Source of the DNA: Corynebacterium lactis
GTDB lineage: Bacteria > Actinomycetota > Actinomycetes > Mycobacteriales > Mycobacteriaceae
Assembly: GCF_900519355.1 (NCBI RefSeq)
Contig: NZ_ULHE01000002.1
Coordinates: 248,001-312,000 of the forward strand
Direction of reading: 5' to 3'
Length of the DNA: 64,000 bases
Position numbers and translations under genes: made by a program. This document shows positions 32,997 to 41,831 of the stretch, piece by piece. Below the pieces are notes generated by a model. It searched no databases. It saw nothing but the letters and a program-made list of their open reading frames with translations, and was not told the DNA's origin. How positions within the stretch are numbered: the first letter of the stretch is position 1; every line of letters begins with the position of its first letter.

Positions 32997-33171
32997 GCGA
33001 TCTACCTCGGAATATTTTCGTCAAAATGGTTGGAAATTAACTCCTTGGTATTTTATTGCCCTCAAACGTGAAAGGGAATTTTTGGCTTATATTGGGTGAT
33101 GTCTTATGCCGAGAGGTGCTGAAATGTGTCAGAAATAGCGTTCAATCGTGGTTTAGATTTGGCGGGCTAGT

Positions 33172-34377
33172 CTACTTTTGCGCTTTAGTATTTCGCATTT
33201 GCCGACGGATCGAGATTGCGGCGTCGCGTCCCGCGCGGTTGGCGCCGACGGTGGAGGCCGAGGGGCCGTAGCCGACCAGGTAAATCCGGGGATCGTCGGC
33301 GACCTGCGGAGGGTCGGTGAGCGTAATGCCGCCGAGCTCGTTGCGCAGGTGCAGCGGCGCTAGGTGGCGCATCTCCCAGCGGAAACCGGTGCCGAAGATA
33401 ATCGCGTCGAAATCGAGGTGCCCGCCGTCGGGCGTGAATACGCCAGTGGCGTCCATGCGCACGAACATAGGGTGGGGGACGAGGACGCCGCGGTCGCGAG
33501 CGTCGATCATGTAGGGCTTCCAGCCCAGCCCCGTAACCGAGACGACCGACTGGGGAGGTAGTCCCTTGCGGACCCGCTCCTCGACGAGCGCGACAGAGTC
33601 GTGGCCGTTGAAGTCCTCGCGGTACTCGGGAGGGCGCCGGGTGAACCAGGTGGTCTCGGCAACCTTGGAGACCTCCGCCAGGTGGCCCGTCGCGGAGATG
33701 CCCGCGCCGACGATGGCGACCTTCTGACCGGCAAACTCCTCGGCGCCGCGATATCCCTGCGTGTGGATAATCCGCCCTTGAAACTTCTCCATTCCCGGAA
33801 TGTAGGGGATGTGCGGGCTGGTCCAGGTGCCGGTCGCGTTGACGAGGAAGGAGGACGTGATGGTCGAGCCGTCGTCAAGCGAGGTGATGAGGCGCTTCGG
33901 GGAGGTGGGGGAGGGCGCTTCGGAAGGGAGATTCTCGACGGAGGTCGCGCGGACGGGGCGGCGAACATGGAGGCCGAAGCGCTTTTCGAATGCATCGAAG
34001 TAGCTGATGAGCGTGGTCGAGGCCTTGGCCTGTGGATCGACCTCGGCCTGGGGCATGCCGGGTAGGTCATAGATGTTGTTGACCGTCTCCATGGTGAGCG
34101 AGTCCCAGCGATGCTGCCAGGCTCCGCCGGGGCCCGGGTTGGCGTCGATGATGTCAAAGGTGGGGGAGGGGGCATCTGCACTGTCGGCAGCGGGTCCGCG
34201 GTTGGTGTTGACCCTGGGGTTGGTGCTGGCCTGCGTCTGGACAAAGCCGCGCTTTTGCAGGTTGTAGGCGGCCGAGAGGCCTGCCTGTCCGGCCCCGATA
34301 ATCAGTACGTCGACGTCCTTGTTTGTTGGGGTGTCAGTCTGGGGAGTTGTCGTGGTGGCCGGGGATGCGCTGCTCAT
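33172..34377 (-). CDS. Flavin-containing monooxygenase-like NAD(P)/FAD oxidoreductase
   Basis: A 401-residue two-dinucleotide-binding protein. The FAD-binding Rossmann motif is VLIIGAGQAGLSAAY near the N-terminus, the NAD(P)-binding motif VAIVGAGISATGHLAE lies in the middle, and a late GTGFRWEMRHLAPL plus IYLVGYGPSASTVGANRAG match the class B flavoprotein monooxygenase/FMO superfamily. The start at 34377 (MSSASPATTT) is chosen because a -10 box lies 6 nt upstream; reading further upstream gives unrelated sequence. The substrate is unknown. A palindrome overlapping the -35 suggests control by a repressor. Confidence 0.85.
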   Translation of the reverse strand: MSSASPATTTTPQTDTPTNKDVDVLIIGAGQAGLSAAYNLQKRGFVQTQASTNPRVNTNRGPAADSADAPSPTFDIIDANPGPGGAWQHRWDSLTMETVNNIYDLPGMPQAEVDPQAKASTTLISYFDAFEKRFGLHVRRPVRATSVENLPSEAPSPTSPKRLITSLDDGSTITSSFLVNATGTWTSPHIPYIPGMEKFQGRIIHTQGYRGAEEFAGQKVAIVGAGISATGHLAEVSKVAETTWFTRRPPEYREDFNGHDSVALVEERVRKGLPPQSVVSVTGLGWKPYMIDARDRGVLVPHPMFVRMDATGVFTPDGGHLDFDAIIFGTGFRWEMRHLAPLHLRNELGGITLTDPPQVADDPRIYLVGYGPSASTVGANRAGRDAAISIRRQMRNTKAQK

Positions 34378-34383
34378 GGCTCC

Positions 34384-34410
34384 ATAGTAGCGCATATGAT
34401 GACATGTCAA
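34384..34410 (-). promoter_or_regulatory. Promoter with overlapping palindrome, monooxygenase gene
   Basis: On the minus strand TTGACA (34410-34405) and TACTAT (34389-34384) are 15 bp apart; the ATG follows 6 nt later. TGACATGTCA (34400-34409) is a perfect 10-bp palindrome covering the -35, a likely repressor site. Confidence 0.5.
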
Positions 34411-34521
34411 CAATAATGGCATTTGCACTTCACGCCACGCTGCCGACGTTGTGCCACGGTACACGGTGGCATAACGTCGGCTGCCTGTCACAACGTCGGA
34501 GGAAGGGGGGCGGAAACCGCC

Positions 34522-37500
34522 CTATCCCACCTTCGGCTCGATCGGGTTGCCCCTCCAGACGGTGTGCGCCGGGACGTGGTCGCCGCGCATGACCAGCGAC
34601 CCCGGCTCCACGCGAGCGCCCGCGCCCAGCACCGAGGCGGGCAGCACCACGGAGTGCGGGCCCAGCACCGCGCCGCGGCCGATGCGCACGGTATCCAGCG
34701 TCATCACGCGGTCGGTGAATAGGTGGGTCTGCACCACGCAACCGCGGCCCACGGTCGCGCCGCGCTCAATCTCGACCAGGTCCGTCTCCGGCAGCCAGTA
34801 GCTCTCCAACCACACGCCGTGACCGACCTTCGCGCCCAAAAGTCGCATCGCGCGCGAGGCGCCGCCGGTCGCCATGGCGGGGTTGAGGTACCAGGGCGCG
34901 GCCACCATCTCCACGAAGGCGTCCTGCAATTCATTCAGCCACACGAAGCGGCTCCATAGCGGGTGGTCGCCCGCCCTATGCTTGCCGACGCACACCCACT
35001 TGGCGGCAACGGTCACCGCAAGGCCCAGGATGCCGGCAAGAAGGAACACCAGCGGGGACAGCGCCCATGCGACGACCAGGCCGGCTGTGGCGCTGCCTCC
35101 CGGGAACCAGGCGGCCACCTGCACTCCGACCCACTGCAGCGCCCCGAGGGTCGCCACCGCGAGCGCCAGCGAGACCATCGGCGCCAGGATGCGCAGGGTC
35201 TCCACAACGCCGCGGGCGAACTTCAGCGCGAAGGTGGGGCGGTAGGTCTGGGCCGACTCGTCCGAGTCCACGCTGGTCACGCGGCGCAGCCGCTCCGGCG
35301 GCGATCCCCACCAGTTCGAGCCCGACTTCGTCTTCTTCGGCGTCGACGAAAGCACCGCGACCAGCGAGTTCTTGGCCAGCTTGCGCCCCGGCAGGGTGAT
35401 GCCCGAGTTGCCCAGGAACGCCCGCTTGCCAATCCGCGAGTCGTCGATAAGCATCCAGCCACCACCGAGCTCGTAGCCGGCGACCATGGTGTCGTCCGCG
35501 AGGAAGGATTCCTCCTTGACGTGCAGCAGCTTCGGGATACCCACCGCAGTGGAGATCTCCGTGTCGTGGCCGATCCGGGCGCCGAGCGCGCGCAGCCAGT
35601 GCGGCGTCAGCATCGACGCGTAGATGAAGAACAGGTCCACGCGGGCGGCGTCCATCAGACGGATCGTGGCCCAGGCCTGCCAGCCAGTCCGGGAGCGCAC
35701 CGGGTGGACGCCGGGGCGCAGCCCCAAGCTGAACAGCCGGACCAGGATCAGGGTGAGGGTCGCGTAGACGACCACGCCCGCCAGGGTTGCCGCGGGGACC
35801 CAGGTCAGGGCGTCGGCAAGCAGGGCCCAGCCGTCACGCGTGCCTGCGCCAACGCCGCCCCAGCCAAACGCGCCCCAGCCGAGCACCGCGGCCATCGCGG
35901 CGAGCGACGCCAGCGGAACCAGCGCGAGCAGCACAGCCGTGGCCCCGTAGACTGCGACCCAGCCGCGCGCGGCCGGCGGCAGCTCCTCGGGGAAACGGTG
36001 CTTCGAGCGGCCCACCTTGCGCGCGGGCGAGCCCGACCAGCGGGCCCCCGCCTTGACCTTCTTCTCTCCCGTGACGGTCGAGCCGGCCTCGACGTGCGCG
36101 CCCTGCCCAATCCGGGTGCCGGGCAGCAGCGTCGAGCGCGCGCCAATCCGGGCGTGCTCGCCGATGGAAATCTCGCCGACGTGCACGCGATCCCCGTCGA
36201 CCCAGTACCCGGACAGGTCCACCTCCGGCTCGACGGAGCAGTAGTTATCAAGCCGCACCAGGCCCGTCACCGGAGGCAGCGAGTGCAGGTTCACACCCTT
36301 GCCTATCGACGCCCCGAGCATCCTCGCGTACCAGAGGACGAAGGGGGCGCCGGCCACGGAGCGGACCCCGGAGCTCTCCGCCAGGCGCTCGGCGGCCCAC
36401 AGACGCAGGTGCACGCTGCCGCCACGCGGGTAGTCGCCCGGGCGGACCGAGGAGGTCAGGGCGCGGGTCATGAGGGCGTTGATCGGCATGACGCCGAGCG
36501 GGGTCAGGAAGGCCACGGCCAGGAGGGCCACGGCCCAGCCCGGCAGTGCGAGCGGCCCGCCGAGTGACCAGTTGGCAATGGCCAGCCAGGTCACCCAGCG
36601 CACGCCGCGGGCCCACTGCAGCGGGACCATCAGCGCCACCTGCGCCCAGCGGGTCTTCCGCCCCACGGGCTCGGGCTCGGGGACCTCCTGCGCGGGCGCC
36701 GTGGTGGCGTCGGCACGCGAGGGGTCGGCGAAGGAGTCGCTGACGAAACCGCGGGAGATCAGCTCCTCGGCGAGGCGGCCTAGGCGCGGGTGGTCGTAGA
36801 GGTCGCGCACGGCGACCTGCGGGGCGCGCTCGCGGATTCGGGCGACCACGCCCGCGGCGGCCAACGAGGTGCCTCCAAGCGCGAAGAAGTCCGACGACGG
36901 GCCGGGGCTCGGCACCGAGAGGACCTCGGCCCAGATGCCGGAGAGCCACGACTCCACGGGGTTCATCCCCTCGGTGTCGGTGGCGTCTGAGGGCGCGGCC
37001 GGCAGCGGCCACGGCAGCGCGGCCTTGTCCACCTTGCCGGAGGTGCGCACCGGCAGTTCGTCCATGATGTGCAGGCGCGGGACCATCGGGGCGGGCATGG
37101 CGTCGCGGAGGATCGCCATGCACTCGTCGTGGTCCATGCGCGTCGCGTCCCCGCCCGCGCCGACGTAGCCGACCAGCACGGAGTCGCCCGCGCCGGTCTT
37201 CTGCACCACGACGGTCGCCTGCGTCGCGCCGGGCAGCGCGGCCAGGTGCGCCTCGACCTCGCCCAGCTCGATGCGGCGGCCGCCAATTTTGACCTGATCG
37301 TCGACGCGGCCGGCGAAGTACAGCCCGGCCTCGTCCATGATGACGTGGTCGCCGGTGCGGTAGGCGCGCTCCCATCCGAGCGACGGCAGTGGAGCGTACT
37401 TCTCGGCGTCCTTGGCCGGGTCCAGGTAGCGGGCGAGTCCCACGCCGCCGATGACCAGCTCGCCCTTTGTGCCCGGGGGCACGGGCTGGCCGGCCTCGTC

Positions 37501-38532
37501 GATGACGGTGAGGTCCCAGCCGTCCAGCGGGAAACCAATGGTCACGGGGCTACCGGGGAAGAGCTGGATGCCCGAGGCCACCACGGTCGCCTCCGTCGGG
37601 CCGTAGGTGTTCCACATCTCGCGCTCCGGGGTGGACAGGCGCTCGACCAGCTCTTGCGGGCAGGCTTCGCCGCCGACGATGAGCAGCCGCACGCTGTCCA
37701 GGGCCTCGGCGGGCCACAGGCCAGCCAGGGTCGGAACGGTCGACACCGCAGTGATCTCGCGGGAGATCAGCCAGGGGCCGAGGTCCACACCCGAGCGCAC
37801 CAGCGAGCGCGGCGCCGGGACCAGGCAGGCGCCGTTGCGCCAGGCCAGCCACATCTCCTCACAGGAGGCATCGAACGCCACGGACAGGCCCGCGAGCACG
37901 CGGTCGTCAGGGCTCAGCGGCCCCTCCGGGTGGTGGGCCAAGAACCAGCGGGCCTCCGCGTCCACGAACGCCGCCGCGCTGCGGTGCGTCACCGCCACGC
38001 CCTTCGGTTTGCCCGTCGACCCGGAGGTGAAGATGATCCAGCAGTCGTCGTCCGGGGTGGGGGACTGGTCGGTCGGAGTCTCGCCCGCATTCTGTCCCGT
38101 GCTACCCGCCACTGACCCCCGACCCGTGACCACGCTGGTCAGGTGCAGCCCCTCGGCGTCGAAGTAGCCGGCGATGCCCGCCTCGCCGAAGACCATCTCG
38201 GCACGCTCGTCCGGGTCGTCCGCGTCCACCGGCACGTACGCCGCACCGGCCGCCATAATCGACAGGATCGCCACGTAGAGCTCGTGGCTTCCCGACGGCA
38301 TCCTCACGCCAATGCGGTCTCCCCGGCGAATGCCCTGTTCAAACAGCCACCTGGCGGTGGTGTCGATCTCGTGGAGCAGGTCTGAGTAGGTGACAACCGA
38401 CTTCCCGTCATCGATCGCGGCGGCGTCCGGGTGGAGACGGGCGCTGACCCGCAGAATGTCGATCAGGGTGCGCTCGGAAGGGGTGCGGTCGGCTCGGAAG
38501 AACCGGTTTTCAATCTGGGGCTGGCTAGACAT
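34522..38532 (-). CDS. Pls/PosA-type single-module NRPS (poly-amino-acid synthetase-like)
   Basis: A 1336-residue membrane NRPS. Order: adenylation domain (FTSGSTGKPKG at 168-178, NTYGPTEA at 308-315, YRTGDH at 391-396, catalytic Lys500), a carrier domain with the phosphopantetheine Ser556 in LGGTSL, then about six membrane segments alternating with three soluble domains that carry hexapeptide (left-handed beta-helix) repeats, e.g. IGEHARIGARSTLLPGTRIG. There is no condensation or thioesterase domain. This is the architecture and length of epsilon-poly-lysine synthetase, which joins lysines with its C-terminal domains. Pocket residues by alignment to PheA are D221, A222, E225, T265, I285, G287, T309, V317, V318, K500, close to a lysine code I recall. 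Its ATG overlaps the upstream MarR stop (TAATG). Confidence 0.88.
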   Translation of the reverse strand: MSSQPQIENRFFRADRTPSERTLIDILRVSARLHPDAAAIDDGKSVVTYSDLLHEIDTTARWLFEQGIRRGDRIGVRMPSGSHELYVAILSIMAAGAAYVPVDADDPDERAEMVFGEAGIAGYFDAEGLHLTSVVTGRGSVAGSTGQNAGETPTDQSPTPDDDCWIIFTSGSTGKPKGVAVTHRSAAAFVDAEARWFLAHHPEGPLSPDDRVLAGLSVAFDASCEEMWLAWRNGACLVPAPRSLVRSGVDLGPWLISREITAVSTVPTLAGLWPAEALDSVRLLIVGGEACPQELVERLSTPEREMWNTYGPTEATVVASGIQLFPGSPVTIGFPLDGWDLTVIDEAGQPVPPGTKGELVIGGVGLARYLDPAKDAEKYAPLPSLGWERAYRTGDHVIMDEAGLYFAGRVDDQVKIGGRRIELGEVEAHLAALPGATQATVVVQKTGAGDSVLVGYVGAGGDATRMDHDECMAILRDAMPAPMVPRLHIMDELPVRTSGKVDKAALPWPLPAAPSDATDTEGMNPVESWLSGIWAEVLSVPSPGPSSDFFALGGTSLAAAGVVARIRERAPQVAVRDLYDHPRLGRLAEELISRGFVSDSFADPSRADATTAPAQEVPEPEPVGRKTRWAQVALMVPLQWARGVRWVTWLAIANWSLGGPLALPGWAVALLAVAFLTPLGVMPINALMTRALTSSVRPGDYPRGGSVHLRLWAAERLAESSGVRSVAGAPFVLWYARMLGASIGKGVNLHSLPPVTGLVRLDNYCSVEPEVDLSGYWVDGDRVHVGEISIGEHARIGARSTLLPGTRIGQGAHVEAGSTVTGEKKVKAGARWSGSPARKVGRSKHRFPEELPPAARGWVAVYGATAVLLALVPLASLAAMAAVLGWGAFGWGGVGAGTRDGWALLADALTWVPAATLAGVVVYATLTLILVRLFSLGLRPGVHPVRSRTGWQAWATIRLMDAARVDLFFIYASMLTPHWLRALGARIGHDTEISTAVGIPKLLHVKEESFLADDTMVAGYELGGGWMLIDDSRIGKRAFLGNSGITLPGRKLAKNSLVAVLSSTPKKTKSGSNWWGSPPERLRRVTSVDSDESAQTYRPTFALKFARGVVETLRILAPMVSLALAVATLGALQWVGVQVAAWFPGGSATAGLVVAWALSPLVFLLAGILGLAVTVAAKWVCVGKHRAGDHPLWSRFVWLNELQDAFVEMVAAPWYLNPAMATGGASRAMRLLGAKVGHGVWLESYWLPETDLVEIERGATVGRGCVVQTHLFTDRVMTLDTVRIGRGAVLGPHSVVLPASVLGAGARVEPGSLVMRGDHVPAHTVWRGNPIEPKVG

Positions 38533-39359
38533 TACTTTCCGTCACCCTTCTTTTTCTTCTTGACCTTCTTCTTTTTCTTGGACTTCTTCTTGGGGGCGTC
38601 CGATTGTTGCGAGTCCGCCTGGGCGTCGGCCGGGGCAGGAGCGGAGTCAAATACGGAGTCAGGGGCCGCAGCGGGTGCGCCCGCTACATCCTTCGCTGCC
38701 TCTCCAGCAGCCTTGGTCGCTGCAGTGCCCGCTTCGTCGGACGGGACAGCGGGCAAGGCCGTGGCAGAGGCTTCCGGTTCTGCCGAGGATGCAGGGGCCG
38801 TGGAGTCGTCGGCAAGCGAGGCGAGAAGGGTGCGCACCTCGGCGGAGCAGCCAGCGATGGCGGCGCGCTCCGCCCGGCGCAGAGAACGACGAAGGGATAC
38901 GCGGGCAGTTTCGCCCTCGTCCGTCAGCGAAATGAGCTGGCGACGGCGGTCGTTGCGGTCCCGCGTACGGGTGACCAGGCCCGACTTCTCCAGGTTATCG
39001 ATCAGTCGCACCATGTCCGAGCGATCCATGCCGAGGACGGCGCTCAGCTCCGTCTGTGCCATCCCGAGGCCATCGGCGATAGCTTCGAGAACCCAGTATC
39101 CGCGCAGGGACAGTGCCTCGATGTTAGTTCGGGCCAGCGTCGCCTGAACGCTTGAGCGGATGGCGGAATCGAGCTGCGACAGGCACCAGGAGGCGGACTT
39201 GCGGAGGGCTGTTGGAGCCTCCGGGGTCTCCGCGGGAGCGGTCGACAAGGCAGCGCTGTCTTTGGACCGCTTCAGCTTCTTGGCAGATCCCGACTTCTTC
39301 GACTTGCGCGGTGCGGGCTGAACCGTCGTAGCCGACGTGGTGGGGGAGGAATCAGACAT
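38532..39359 (-). CDS. MarR-family regulator with a lysine-rich C-terminal tail
   Basis: A 275-residue regulator. A basic N-terminus (APRKSKKSGSAKKLKRSKD) precedes a standard MarR winged helix (about 75-185): GMAQTELSAVLGMDRSDMVR as the helix-turn-helix and RTRDRNDRRRQLISLTDEG as the wing. An Ala/Ser/Pro-rich linker of about 70 residues follows, then the tail KKKSKKKKKVKKKKKGDGK, with 14 lysines in 19 residues. The stop overlaps the NRPS start by one base. A -10 box (TAGGAT, 39366-39371) 6 nt before the ATG suggests a leaderless bicistronic mRNA, and a palindrome over the promoter suggests autoregulation. Confidence 0.88.
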   Translation of the reverse strand: MSDSSPTTSATTVQPAPRKSKKSGSAKKLKRSKDSAALSTAPAETPEAPTALRKSASWCLSQLDSAIRSSVQATLARTNIEALSLRGYWVLEAIADGLGMAQTELSAVLGMDRSDMVRLIDNLEKSGLVTRTRDRNDRRRQLISLTDEGETARVSLRRSLRRAERAAIAGCSAEVRTLLASLADDSTAPASSAEPEASATALPAVPSDEAGTAATKAAGEAAKDVAGAPAAAPDSVFDSAPAPADAQADSQQSDAPKKKSKKKKKVKKKKKGDGK

Positions 39360-39403
39360 GCCCCCATCCTATCGAACCCGTGGAGGGTTCAATGGTGGGG
39401 GCA
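39359..39403. promoter_or_regulatory. Promoter-operator palindrome of the MarR-NRPS operon
   Basis: Nested inverted repeats: TGCCCCCA (39359-39366) with TGGGGGCA (39396-39403), and GAACCC (39374-39379) with GGGTTC (39385-39390). The inner palindrome GAACCC-N5-GGGTTC is 17 bp, a typical MarR site size, and overlaps a TTGAAC -35 (39392-39387); the -10 is TAGGAT (39371-39366). Binding would block transcription of the operon. Confidence 0.6.
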
Positions 39404-39420
39404 TTCCAATTAATTTTGGG

Positions 39421-39435
39421 GCCTCTTTCAGAGGC
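39421..39435 (-). terminator. Small hairpin after the rhodanese gene
   Basis: GCCTCT-TTC-AGAGGC lies 6 nt beyond the rhodanese stop. The stem is short and the minus-strand T-run is weak, so it is a possible terminator only. Confidence 0.35.
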
Positions 39436-39441
39436 TTTTCC

Positions 39442-39735
39442 TTAGGCCTTCTCCATCGGGAGGCCGAAGTGCTCCCAATCGATGATGCCGCCGGTGACGT
39501 TAATGACGTCGATGCCGTTCTTCTCCAGCCAGGACGCAACCTGCGCGGAACGTCCGCCGGAGCGGCACATGATGTAAATGTCCGAATCGAGATCCAGCTC
39601 GCCGTAGCGGGACGGAATCTCCTCCATCGGGATGTGGATAGCGCCCTTAGCGTGGCCTTCGTCCCACTCCATCTGGGAGCGGACGTCGATCAGCTGTGCG
39701 CCTGTGGGTACTTCAGTAACAGATACAGATTTCAT
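39442..39735 (-). CDS. Single-domain rhodanese-like protein
   Basis: A 97-residue sulfurtransferase-fold protein with the active-site loop CRSGGRS (Cys persulfide in the catalytic cycle) and the standard opening LIDVRSQMEWDEGHAKGAIHIPM. It is cytosolic, with no signal peptide. The loop length of six residues fits a sulfur-transferring, not phosphatase-type, rhodanese. Genes of this kind handle sulfane sulfur from thiosulfate or persulfides; no sulfur-assimilation neighbour fixes the role. It lies 43 nt downstream of ppa on the same strand and could be co-transcribed with it. Confidence 0.9.
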   Translation of the reverse strand: MKSVSVTEVPTGAQLIDVRSQMEWDEGHAKGAIHIPMEEIPSRYGELDLDSDIYIMCRSGGRSAQVASWLEKNGIDVINVTGGIIDWEHFGLPMEKA

Positions 39736-39778
39736 AGTGCGACATCATACGCGCAGGCGCCGGGCTAGGTCGCGGACC

Positions 39779-40252
39779 TTACTTGTGGCGCTCGATGGCC
39801 TCGGCGAGGATCTTCTCGGCCTCAGCCTTGTTACCCCAGCCCGAACCGGAAACTTCCTTGCCCGGCTCCAGGTCCTTGTAGTGGACGAAGAAGTGCTCGA
39901 TCTCGTCCTTGGTGAAGGAGGAGATGTCGTCGATGTCCTGGAAGTTGTCGAAGCGGACGTCGTCGAGGACGCAGAGCAGCTTGTCGTCGCCGCCGGCCTC
40001 GTCGGTCATCTTGAACACGCCGACCGGGCGGGCCTTAACGATAACGCCCGGGAACACCGGCTCCGGCAGGATCACGAGAGCGTCCAACGGGTCGCCGTCC
40101 TCGCCCAGAGTGCCATCGATGAACCCGTAGTCGGCCGGGTATGCCATGGGGGTGAACAGGTAGCGGTCGAGGTAGACCTTGCCGGTCTCGTGATCGACTT
40201 CGTACTTGTTGCGCTGACCCTTCGGGATCTCAATAGTGACCTCAACGCTCAC
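39779..40252 (-). CDS. ppa: Inorganic pyrophosphatase
   Basis: Family I soluble pyrophosphatase, 157 residues, hydrolysing PPi to two phosphates and so driving biosynthetic reactions. The signature [10 protein letters not shown] with the metal-binding Asp residues is present, as are [14 protein letters not shown] and [12 protein letters not shown]. The length is typical of bacterial/actinobacterial enzymes. It is divergent from dacB, as Rv3628 is from Rv3627c. Confidence 0.96.
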
Positions 40253-40316
40253 GGCGATGACTCCTTATAATCGGTGTACAATTCCCTGACGGCCATCTTA
40301 GGCGATACTGCTAGCC

Positions 40317-41831
40317 GTGCGCGCTTTCGCCCACCCGTGGTGGCTCCAATCCGATGCGGCGTGTGTCCGCGGGAAGCAGGTGCCCTTCACTGTGAGCAGC
40401 GCTGATTCTTCGTCTGGTGCAAAGTCCGGGGACAAGCCCGCCGCCAAGCGCCGTGGCTGGGTCGTGTGGTTGTCCGTCCTGGCTGTTTTCGTTCTCGTCG
40501 CCGTTGCCGGAACCGTCGCGCTGATTTCCTACAACAATCACCAGATTGAAGTGAAGCCCGCCCCCGCAGTTACTCACGCCTCCTCGCCGGTCACCGCCGC
40601 GAAGTCCTCGCTTGCCGACGACGCCCTGGCCGCCAAGGTCTCTGCCGCCATGGGCGTTGCAAGTGAGGACCCGGGCTTCGGGGACCTGCACGCGATCGTT
40701 GCGGATGCCTCCACGGGCAAGAGCCTATGGAGCAAGAACGACGACGTGGCCGCGATGCCGGCGTCATCGCTGAAGATTCTGACCGCTTCCGCTGCTCTGC
40801 TCGGCCTTGATCACGGTCACCGCGTCGAAACGAAGGTCCTGCGCTACGGAAACACGCGCGACATCGTCGTCCAGGGCGCGGGCGACCCTACCTTGAGCGT
40901 CGACGGAAACGGTTTCTTTCACGACGCAGCCTCCATCGCTGACCTCGCGGCCAAGGTGAAAGCCGCCATGCCGGAGGGCGTTGGCAAGGTGTACGTGGAC
41001 GCCTCGCTCTTCACCGAGACCTTCCACTCCACCTGGGACAAGCAAGGGCTTTCCGACGGTTACGTCGCCGATGTCAAGCCCACCATGATCGATGCGGGGC
41101 GCGTCGATCCCACCGACGAGAACTCCCCGCGCAGCAAGACCCCTGCTGCTGACGTGGCTACGGTTTTGGCCCGTGCGCTCGGCGCCGAGGACGGCGGTGA
41201 CGTTGCCGATGGAGTCCCGCTGCCAGCCGTCGAACCCACCACCGTGGCCTCCGTGCGCTCGGCACCGCTGATCACTCGGATTCGCGACATGATGCTCTAC
41301 AGCGACAACGTCCTGGCCGAGTCCATTGCCCGTGAGCTGGCGGTGAAGCGGGGCCTGCCGCCGACCTTCGAGGGGGCGGCCGAGGCCGTACGGAGCACTC
41401 TGGCGGAGCACGGAATTCGGCTCGACGGCGCAGTGCTCTCGGACTCCAGTGGTCTGAGCACCGACGACCGTGTGACGCCGCAACACCTGGCCACAGTTTT
41501 GAATGCCGCTGTGGGCCCTCTGCGTGAGGATGAGAAAACGTCGGGAAGCGACCCCGAAGCGGCGGCGGTGACGGTGGCGCTGCGACCGCTGCTCGACTGC
41601 CTGCCGGTGGCGAGTGTGTCGGGCACGCTGGAGGGGCGTTTCGGGCAGACTTCCGGTGCCGGGTTGGTCCGCGCGAAGACGGGAACGCTGGACAAGGCGT
41701 CGGCGCTGGCTGGGTACGTGGTGACGAAGTCGGGCCAGGTGCTCAGCTTCGTCATGCTGTCCAACGATGCCAGTATTCTGCCGGCGCGCGCAGCAGCTGA
41801 CCGTGCCGCAAGCGCCCTGGCGGACATCTAA
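40317..41831 (+). CDS. dacB: D-alanyl-D-alanine carboxypeptidase/endopeptidase (S13, PBP4-type)
   Basis: Penicillin-binding protein that trims peptidoglycan peptides outside the membrane. From the GTG at 40317 it has 504 residues. A single membrane anchor (WVVWLSVLAVFVLVAVAGTVALI, about 48-70) is followed by the catalytic domain with Ser150-x-x-Lys153 (PASSLK), the SxN motif YSDNVLAE and KTG in VRAKTGTL. A GATACT -10-like box 7 nt before 40317 suggests a leaderless start; an in-frame GTG at 40392 is an alternative that still keeps the membrane anchor. It heads the dacB-tilS-hpt block. Confidence 0.92.
   Translation: MRAFAHPWWLQSDAACVRGKQVPFTVSSADSSSGAKSGDKPAAKRRGWVVWLSVLAVFVLVAVAGTVALISYNNHQIEVKPAPAVTHASSPVTAAKSSLADDALAAKVSAAMGVASEDPGFGDLHAIVADASTGKSLWSKNDDVAAMPASSLKILTASAALLGLDHGHRVETKVLRYGNTRDIVVQGAGDPTLSVDGNGFFHDAASIADLAAKVKAAMPEGVGKVYVDASLFTETFHSTWDKQGLSDGYVADVKPTMIDAGRVDPTDENSPRSKTPAADVATVLARALGAEDGGDVADGVPLPAVEPTTVASVRSAPLITRIRDMMLYSDNVLAESIARELAVKRGLPPTFEGAAEAVRSTLAEHGIRLDGAVLSDSSGLSTDDRVTPQHLATVLNAAVGPLREDEKTSGSDPEAAAVTVALRPLLDCLPVASVSGTLEGRFGQTSGAGLVRAKTGTLDKASALAGYVVTKSGQVLSFVMLSNDASILPARAAADRAASALADI

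Follow-up and report, generated by a model that had tools for sequence, protein, structure and literature searches.

A lysine-rich tail on a MarR-family regulator encoded beside an epsilon-polylysine synthetase gene in Corynebacterium

In Corynebacterium lactis, a gene for a MarR-family regulator abuts a gene for a nonribosomal peptide synthetase (NRPS) of the epsilon-polylysine synthetase type (Pls), and the last codons of the regulator gene encode a run of lysines. Both genes lie in a stretch of 64,000 nucleotides (contig NZ_ULHE01000002.1, positions 248,001 to 312,000), here called the window, whose own numbering is used throughout. The lysine-rich tail is real and specific to one clade of the genus. 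The explanation that we favour, on balance a probable one, is a basic arm that works at the level of the protein and whose final codons also serve as the ribosome-binding site of Pls, in a regulator-synthetase pair that is widely kept. Sequence comparison does not favour the tail as a sensor of lysine supply.

In the favoured model, the regulator and the synthetase, presumably co-transcribed, form a two-gene operon in most of the Corynebacterium genomes sampled, an operon that the regulator itself may control. In one clade, the regulator carries an added linker, predicted to be disordered, that leads into a lysine-rich arm at the C-terminus. The arm would most likely make non-specific contact with DNA or another polyanion, lengthening residence on DNA; its last codons (AAGAAGGG) would provide a purine-rich, weakly structured ribosome-binding site for the synthetase gene; and the overlap of stop and start codons would permit coupled translation of the two proteins. 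The pair, the tail with its clade and retention, AAGAAGGG, and the pocket can be read from the sequences themselves; co-transcription, DNA contact, ribosome use of AAGAAGGG, coupling, and control of the operon by the regulator are inferred.

Pls genes are common in corynebacteria yet silent in native C. variabile, according to the available text of PMC8117764. The MarR gene, beside Pls in 125 of 141 junctions, is a direct candidate for the control of this silent polylysine synthesis. No description of the MarR-Pls pair or of the lysine tail was found in the literature searched.

The regulator, its tail and the synthetase

The regulator gene (38532..39359, minus strand; 275 amino acids), read from its open reading frame and translation, matches Pfam MarR_2 at 1.1e-12, with 48.4 bits against a cut-off of 27. 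An AlphaFold2 model agrees: it contains a folded winged-helix core (residues 50-186; 38802..39212, minus strand) whose helices and strands match MarR folds, and ten-residue means of the predicted local distance difference test (pLDDT) lie between 88 and 97 for most of the core, with 74 where it ends. Both ends of the protein are modelled with low confidence. Near the amino terminus lies a lysine-rich segment of low pLDDT (residues 18-34, RKSKKSGSAKKLKRSKD; 39258..39308, minus strand). On the carboxyl side, the extension starts past the last MarR helix, the point at which tail-less relatives end in the alignment. Its proximal part is a linker (residues 187-256; 38592..38801, minus strand), delimited by alignment and low model confidence; it is rich in alanine, proline, and acidic residues, varies in length and sequence between relatives, and aligns poorly. 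Its distal part is the lysine-rich tail (residues 257-275; 38535..38591, minus strand), delimited by its sequence and by the tails of relatives.

The translated C-terminal sequence is KKKSKKKKKVKKKKKGDGK. The reading frame, which runs from 39359 down to 38532, ends with the residues DAPKKKSKKKKKVKKKKKGDGK and a TAA at 38534-38532; the NRPS ATG (38532-38530) overlaps this stop by one nucleotide, giving TAATG (38530..38534, minus strand). The tail holds 14 lysines in 19 residues, 13 of them within 15 consecutive codons. This count and the TAATG overlap had been claimed in the original prediction, and both are exact in the regulator sequence. Chance is a very poor account of it: lysine makes up 3.2% of the codons of 14 nearby genes picked by eye, and a simple binomial model then yields P of about 1e-17 for 14 of 19 in a given stretch.

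Comparable tails are scarce. Among mechanically called, non-overlapping open reading frames of at least 120 amino acids, the regulator alone of 49 in the window has at least 10 lysines in its last 25 residues. None of 822 such frames from 80 related loci does, and two of these contain an internal lysine-rich stretch. Five AAR triplets in a row occur three times, in any frame, in the whole 2.57-Mb genome, and two of these occurrences lie in the regulator tail. Because the reversed control pattern scored two, a single run of five AAR is not rare by itself; the cluster of lysine codons is. Six successive AAG codons have no match anywhere in the genome.

The downstream gene (34522..38532, minus strand; 1336 amino acids) encodes a Pls-family NRPS of the epsilon-polylysine synthetase type. 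Its Pls/PosA terminal domain (TIGR02353, residues 630-1331) scores 721.4 bits against a cut-off of 423.1. A domain search also recovered AMP-binding, carrier, and hexapeptide-repeat regions, including a phosphopantetheine carrier domain (PF00550, residues 529-590; 36763..36948, minus strand). The nearest solved relative of the adenylation domain (37015..38448, minus strand) is the epsilon-poly-L-lysine synthase 7wew; the domain carries a lysine-type pocket, DAESIGTVV. Pocket positions were set by motifs and PheA numbering, and the same residues were found by eye in the 7wew alignment. Scanning of 109 loci yielded 98 Pls adenylation domains (9 from tailed and 9 from tail-less loci of the genus, along with 80 from named loci), and the pocket is identical in all 98.

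The NRPS very probably uses lysine, so the premise of the original prediction that it consumes this amino acid is supported by the 7wew match, the pocket, and the C. variabile homologue (PMC8117764, in its available text). The same text reports that the C. variabile Pls yielded epsilon-polylysine when placed in Streptomyces coelicolor. Native C. variabile made no epsilon-polylysine and its Pls protein went undetected, and the authors there propose an unknown trigger. The term MarR does not occur in the main text of PMC8117764. By this likeness, the partner of the window regulator probably makes polylysine, as the C. variabile homologue does in S. coelicolor.

A widespread pair and a clade-specific tail

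Relatives of the regulator were sought in 201 genus genomes, and those of the NRPS in 201 genus and 201 family genomes (E up to 1e-100). The NRPS is present in 153 of the genus genomes and 184 of the family genomes, a sample that includes some Corynebacterium. Junctions were fetched from 140 of the 152 other genus genomes with a Pls match, making 141 with the window; the 12 left out had partial or weaker Pls matches, some absent from the match table. The matches of the family search supplied another 20 junctions, all from outside the genus.

A MarR gene lies within 200 nucleotides upstream of Pls in 125 of the 141 Corynebacterium junctions. Among the other 16, eight have a regulator farther off, and none was found in the remaining eight. 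Outside the genus, one of the 20 junctions has a MarR relative upstream of Pls. In a set of 80 named loci (L194-L273), which may omit near relatives of the window, 14 have a regulator near Pls, in Corynebacterium and in other genera such as Nocardia, each with 0-6 lysines in its last 25 residues.

The lysine tail is found in 10 of the 125 adjacent regulators, with 10-14 lysines and 0-3 arginines in the last 25 residues; the other 115 have 0-6 lysines there. A motif near the end, KQ(L/R/M)K, occurs in 112 of the 125 and is an ordinary MarR helix motif. With start codons chosen by rule, the pair overlaps or stands at most 20 nucleotides apart in 100 of 125 cases. (The rule is not always right: one of 20 overlapping pairs has an implausible spacing of -188.) Strict overlap is seen in all ten tailed pairs vs 10 of the 115 tail-less ones. 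The two genes are thus close neighbours throughout, whereas strict overlap is more frequent where the tail is present. Spacing between stop and start is -1 for the window and -4 for the other nine tailed pairs; both values fall inside the range of -4 to +3 at which coupling is most efficient, as given in the available part of a review (PMC12548453). Some genus genomes contain a second Pls copy, about 45% identical.

A tree of 161 Pls proteins, built from up to 200 residues counted from the Pls start, unites the tailed rows and one further locus, L040, in a single group, with a value of 87 in the Shimodaira-Hasegawa-like approximate likelihood ratio test (SH-aLRT). A nearer subclade of seven has an SH-aLRT of 99. 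The tail label requires two changes on this tree. L040 has no regulator upstream, and a rhodanese-like frame (named by eye) precedes its Pls; loss of the regulator is the simplest reading. The locus next outside the group, L043, has a regulator that lacks the tail.

Within the tailed clade, the tail has been retained through considerable change. When the window is compared with L034, L035, and L036, 45-61% of the fourfold-degenerate sites at the start of Pls are different, yet the tails remain lysine-rich. Residue changes affect 12 of 22 tail columns in the nearer subclade (seven rows), so that composition is kept and not sequence; arginine and asparagine stand in for some of the lysines. In the farther subclade (three rows), the last 14 tail residues are identical and two codon columns carry synonymous changes. 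The last 22 residues of the ten tails total 124 lysines and 20 arginines, compared with 200 and 423 in neighbouring genes. A lysine-rich N-terminus of the regulator is present throughout the nearer subclade (7/7; 7-13 lysines in 42-78 residues, in total 69 lysines and 18 arginines by hand sum) and absent from all three farther rows. Because the lysine-rich composition outlasts large synonymous divergence, the tail probably is selected.

A proposed basic arm and ribosome-binding site, and rival explanations

Contact of the arm with DNA is proposed from the lysine-rich ends of the regulator, modelled with low confidence on either side of a MarR core, and from precedents for lysine-rich tails in Ku, HupB, and TopA. 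According to PMC7398561, Ku and HupB need their lysine-rich C-terminal regions for DNA contact, and TopA dissociates from DNA more readily once the lysine repeats are removed. The features of the window regulator and its relatives suggest that a protein which binds DNA has acquired a basic, disordered arm, paired in one subclade with a lysine-rich N-terminus. The idea in the original prediction that the tail could tune DNA binding survives in this conditional form, as the favoured part of the interpretation.

The tail codons also contain a Shine-Dalgarno (SD)-like site for the NRPS gene: AAGAAGGG, within the Lys-Lys-Gly codons (38545..38552, minus strand). This element stands 9-12 nucleotides before the Pls start in all ten tailed genes (12 in the window), and 10 nucleotides before the assumed TTG start in L040, where no regulator lies upstream. 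It occurs within 25 nucleotides of Pls in none of the 115 tail-less pairs. Mean pairing energy with the anti-SD sequence is -8.5 kcal/mol for the ten tailed genes and -6.5 for the 115 tail-less ones; the mean 80-nucleotide fold is -14.7 vs -20.1 kcal/mol; and the purine fraction of the 40 nucleotides before the Pls start is 0.84 vs 0.55. Conservation of AAGAAGGG, stronger anti-SD pairing, and weaker local folding together suggest that ribosomes may load inside the tail codons. The site may thereby let ribosomes start Pls without first finishing the tail.

Several points weigh against the combination of arm and ribosome-binding site. The tail is unnecessary for an SD-like word, since 66 of the 115 tail-less pairs have another such word before Pls. 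The pairing energies depend on an assumed anti-SD sequence, and the start codons were chosen by rule. Moreover, AAGAAGGG could be conserved merely through the conserved Lys-Lys-Gly and the usual lysine codon, AAG; only L040 separates the two, a single genome with an assumed start. The farther subclade (three rows) has no basic N-terminal arm, and therefore the two-arm argument is limited to the nearer subclade. Lysine outnumbers arginine in the tails (124 to 20), though arginine is twice as common as lysine in neighbouring genes, and charge alone does not account for this preference.

Selection might instead act on the RNA alone, favouring an unfolded stretch rich in A and G where ribosomes bind ahead of Pls, with the lysines a by-product of AAG repeats. 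The purine content and weaker folding fit, as does the presence of AAGAAGGG in all ten tailed genes and in L040 without a regulator. However, the tract extends farther upstream than a ribosome-binding site requires and includes the C-containing arginine codons CGC and CGG; in the farther subclade, the tail protein is near identical while two codon columns show synonymous variation only; and in the nearer subclade the N-terminus of the regulator is rich in lysine too. Selection on RNA alone is therefore unlikely.

The original prediction proposed a lysine-supply gate: when charged tRNA-Lys is low, ribosomes would stall in the 13-lysine stretch, the Pls start would be covered or unreached, and Pls synthesis would drop. 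The enzyme very probably uses lysine; all ten tails hold 10-14 lysine codons within their last 25 and prefer lysine to arginine; and synthesis of cationic peptides slows translation, according to the available text of PMC9207662. The Lys-Lys-Gly end lies 12 nucleotides from the Pls start in the window, so a stalled ribosome should cover that start. Within the tailed clade, gating keeps some plausibility because ribosomes that stall where the lysine run ends would be expected to cover AAGAAGGG all the same. Nevertheless, we regard it as distinctly unlikely. The original prediction named absence of the tail from orthologues with the same NRPS as grounds for refutation; genus-wide, 10 of 125 adjacent pairs have the tail and the other 115 lack it. 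The pocket is the same with or without the tail (9 tailed and 89 other homologues read). The lysine-rich N-terminus of the nearer subclade lies far from the Pls start and cannot gate Pls, and the SD-like site sits within the tail itself. Lysine codon choice resembles that of other window genes, mostly AAG, and AAG runs yield more protein than AAA runs (PMC9207662, in the text available). A particular lysine codon preference was considered and rejected: the AAG/AAA ratio is 79/14 in tails of the nearer subclade and 31/0 in the farther one, and the background is similar (359/61 in window open reading frames of at least 200 amino acids; 182/18 in the 14 neighbouring genes).

The RNA around the junction likewise offers little to a gate. 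A search of 33000-41000 against Rfam gave no match with an E value of 1 or below; no terminator or consensus promoter was found in 38400-39800, with terminator-like sites numbering zero; and the fold around the junction is not unusual (z-score -0.04). A cognate codon run does stand before the gene (13 lysines in 15 codons), but the terminator, fold, and Rfam scans revealed neither a terminator nor alternative RNA structures, and the run precedes Pls in only 10 of 125 adjacent pairs. These results argue against a classical attenuator. Very unlikely, in our estimate, is a triple purpose for the tail codons, as DNA-gripping arm, Pls ribosome-binding site, and throttle on Pls at low charged tRNA-Lys.

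Two other explanations concern the tail as a peptide. Competition of the arm with epsilon-polylysine or polyphosphate, or its displacement by them, might produce feedback, given that the partner of the regulator probably makes a polymer chemically like the tail (the pocket; PMC8117764, available text). Tail-less regulators, however, precede the same enzyme in 115 pairs; we consider such cross-talk highly improbable. Neutral expansion of a functionless AAG simple repeat would account for the low-complexity codons and for a tail confined to a small clade. It is barely credible, however, for a composition that is common to both subclades and survives 45-61% divergence at fourfold-degenerate sites. 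A fusion of the two proteins by frameshifting on the AAA-AAG stretches was rejected as a shared device because the frames are not consistently open: among the ten tailed genes, the -1 frame is open into Pls in four (L035, L041, L042, and L173) and meets a stop in six, the window included, and the +1 frame is open over the 60 codons inspected in L173 only.

Flanking features and known systems

An ATTATTG-like element common to the tailed clade lies upstream of the regulator start (39360-39420; in the window, ACCATTGA). By eye, the clade also has a -10-like box, TANNAT, 6-7 nucleotides before the regulator ATG, which would give a leaderless transcript. A dimeric MarR regulator would be expected to bind a palindromic operator, and the window contains the inverted repeat ATTGAACCC/GGGTTCGAT at 39371-39393. 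A conserved operator palindrome before the regulator gene was rejected: the best repeats of the window and L034 differ. Shuffled sequences matched the best repeat in 25 of 200 trials for the window, 8 of 200 for L034, and 138-176 of 200 for the other eight tailed loci, so that no inverted repeat common to the ten tailed loci stands out.

Downstream of Pls, the gene at 33172-34491 encodes a flavin-dependent oxidoreductase that weakly resembles lysine/ornithine monooxygenases; that it acts on lysine is a guess.

In leader-peptide attenuation of the his/trp type, a run of codons for the amino acid of the pathway lies just before the controlled gene. The window likewise has a cognate codon run directly before the gene in question. 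Here, however, the run ends a 275-codon regulator, the scans found neither a terminator nor an Rfam element and the fold is not unusual, and the enzyme consumes the amino acid and does not make it.

The Pls proteins of Streptomyces albulus and C. variabile likewise combine an adenylation domain, a carrier domain, and the TIGR02353 Pls/PosA domain with a lysine-type pocket. The window differs in context: the MarR gene lies upstream and the flavin oxidoreductase gene downstream, and a peptidase S13 gene is found beyond a pyrophosphatase gene, on the other strand. A MarR gene near an NRPS also is described for the C. aurimucosum plasmid pET44827, where a PecS-like MarR gene lies upstream of an NRPS region; that region is plasmid-borne and concerns a black pigment, and the available text of PMC2830990 describes no lysine tail.

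For the arm itself, the likeness is to actinobacterial TopA, HupB, and Ku. These are not MarR regulators, and the available sections of PMC7398561 describe no ribosome-binding site of a following gene in them; what they share with the window regulator is that they are DNA-binding proteins whose C-terminal region is rich in lysine.
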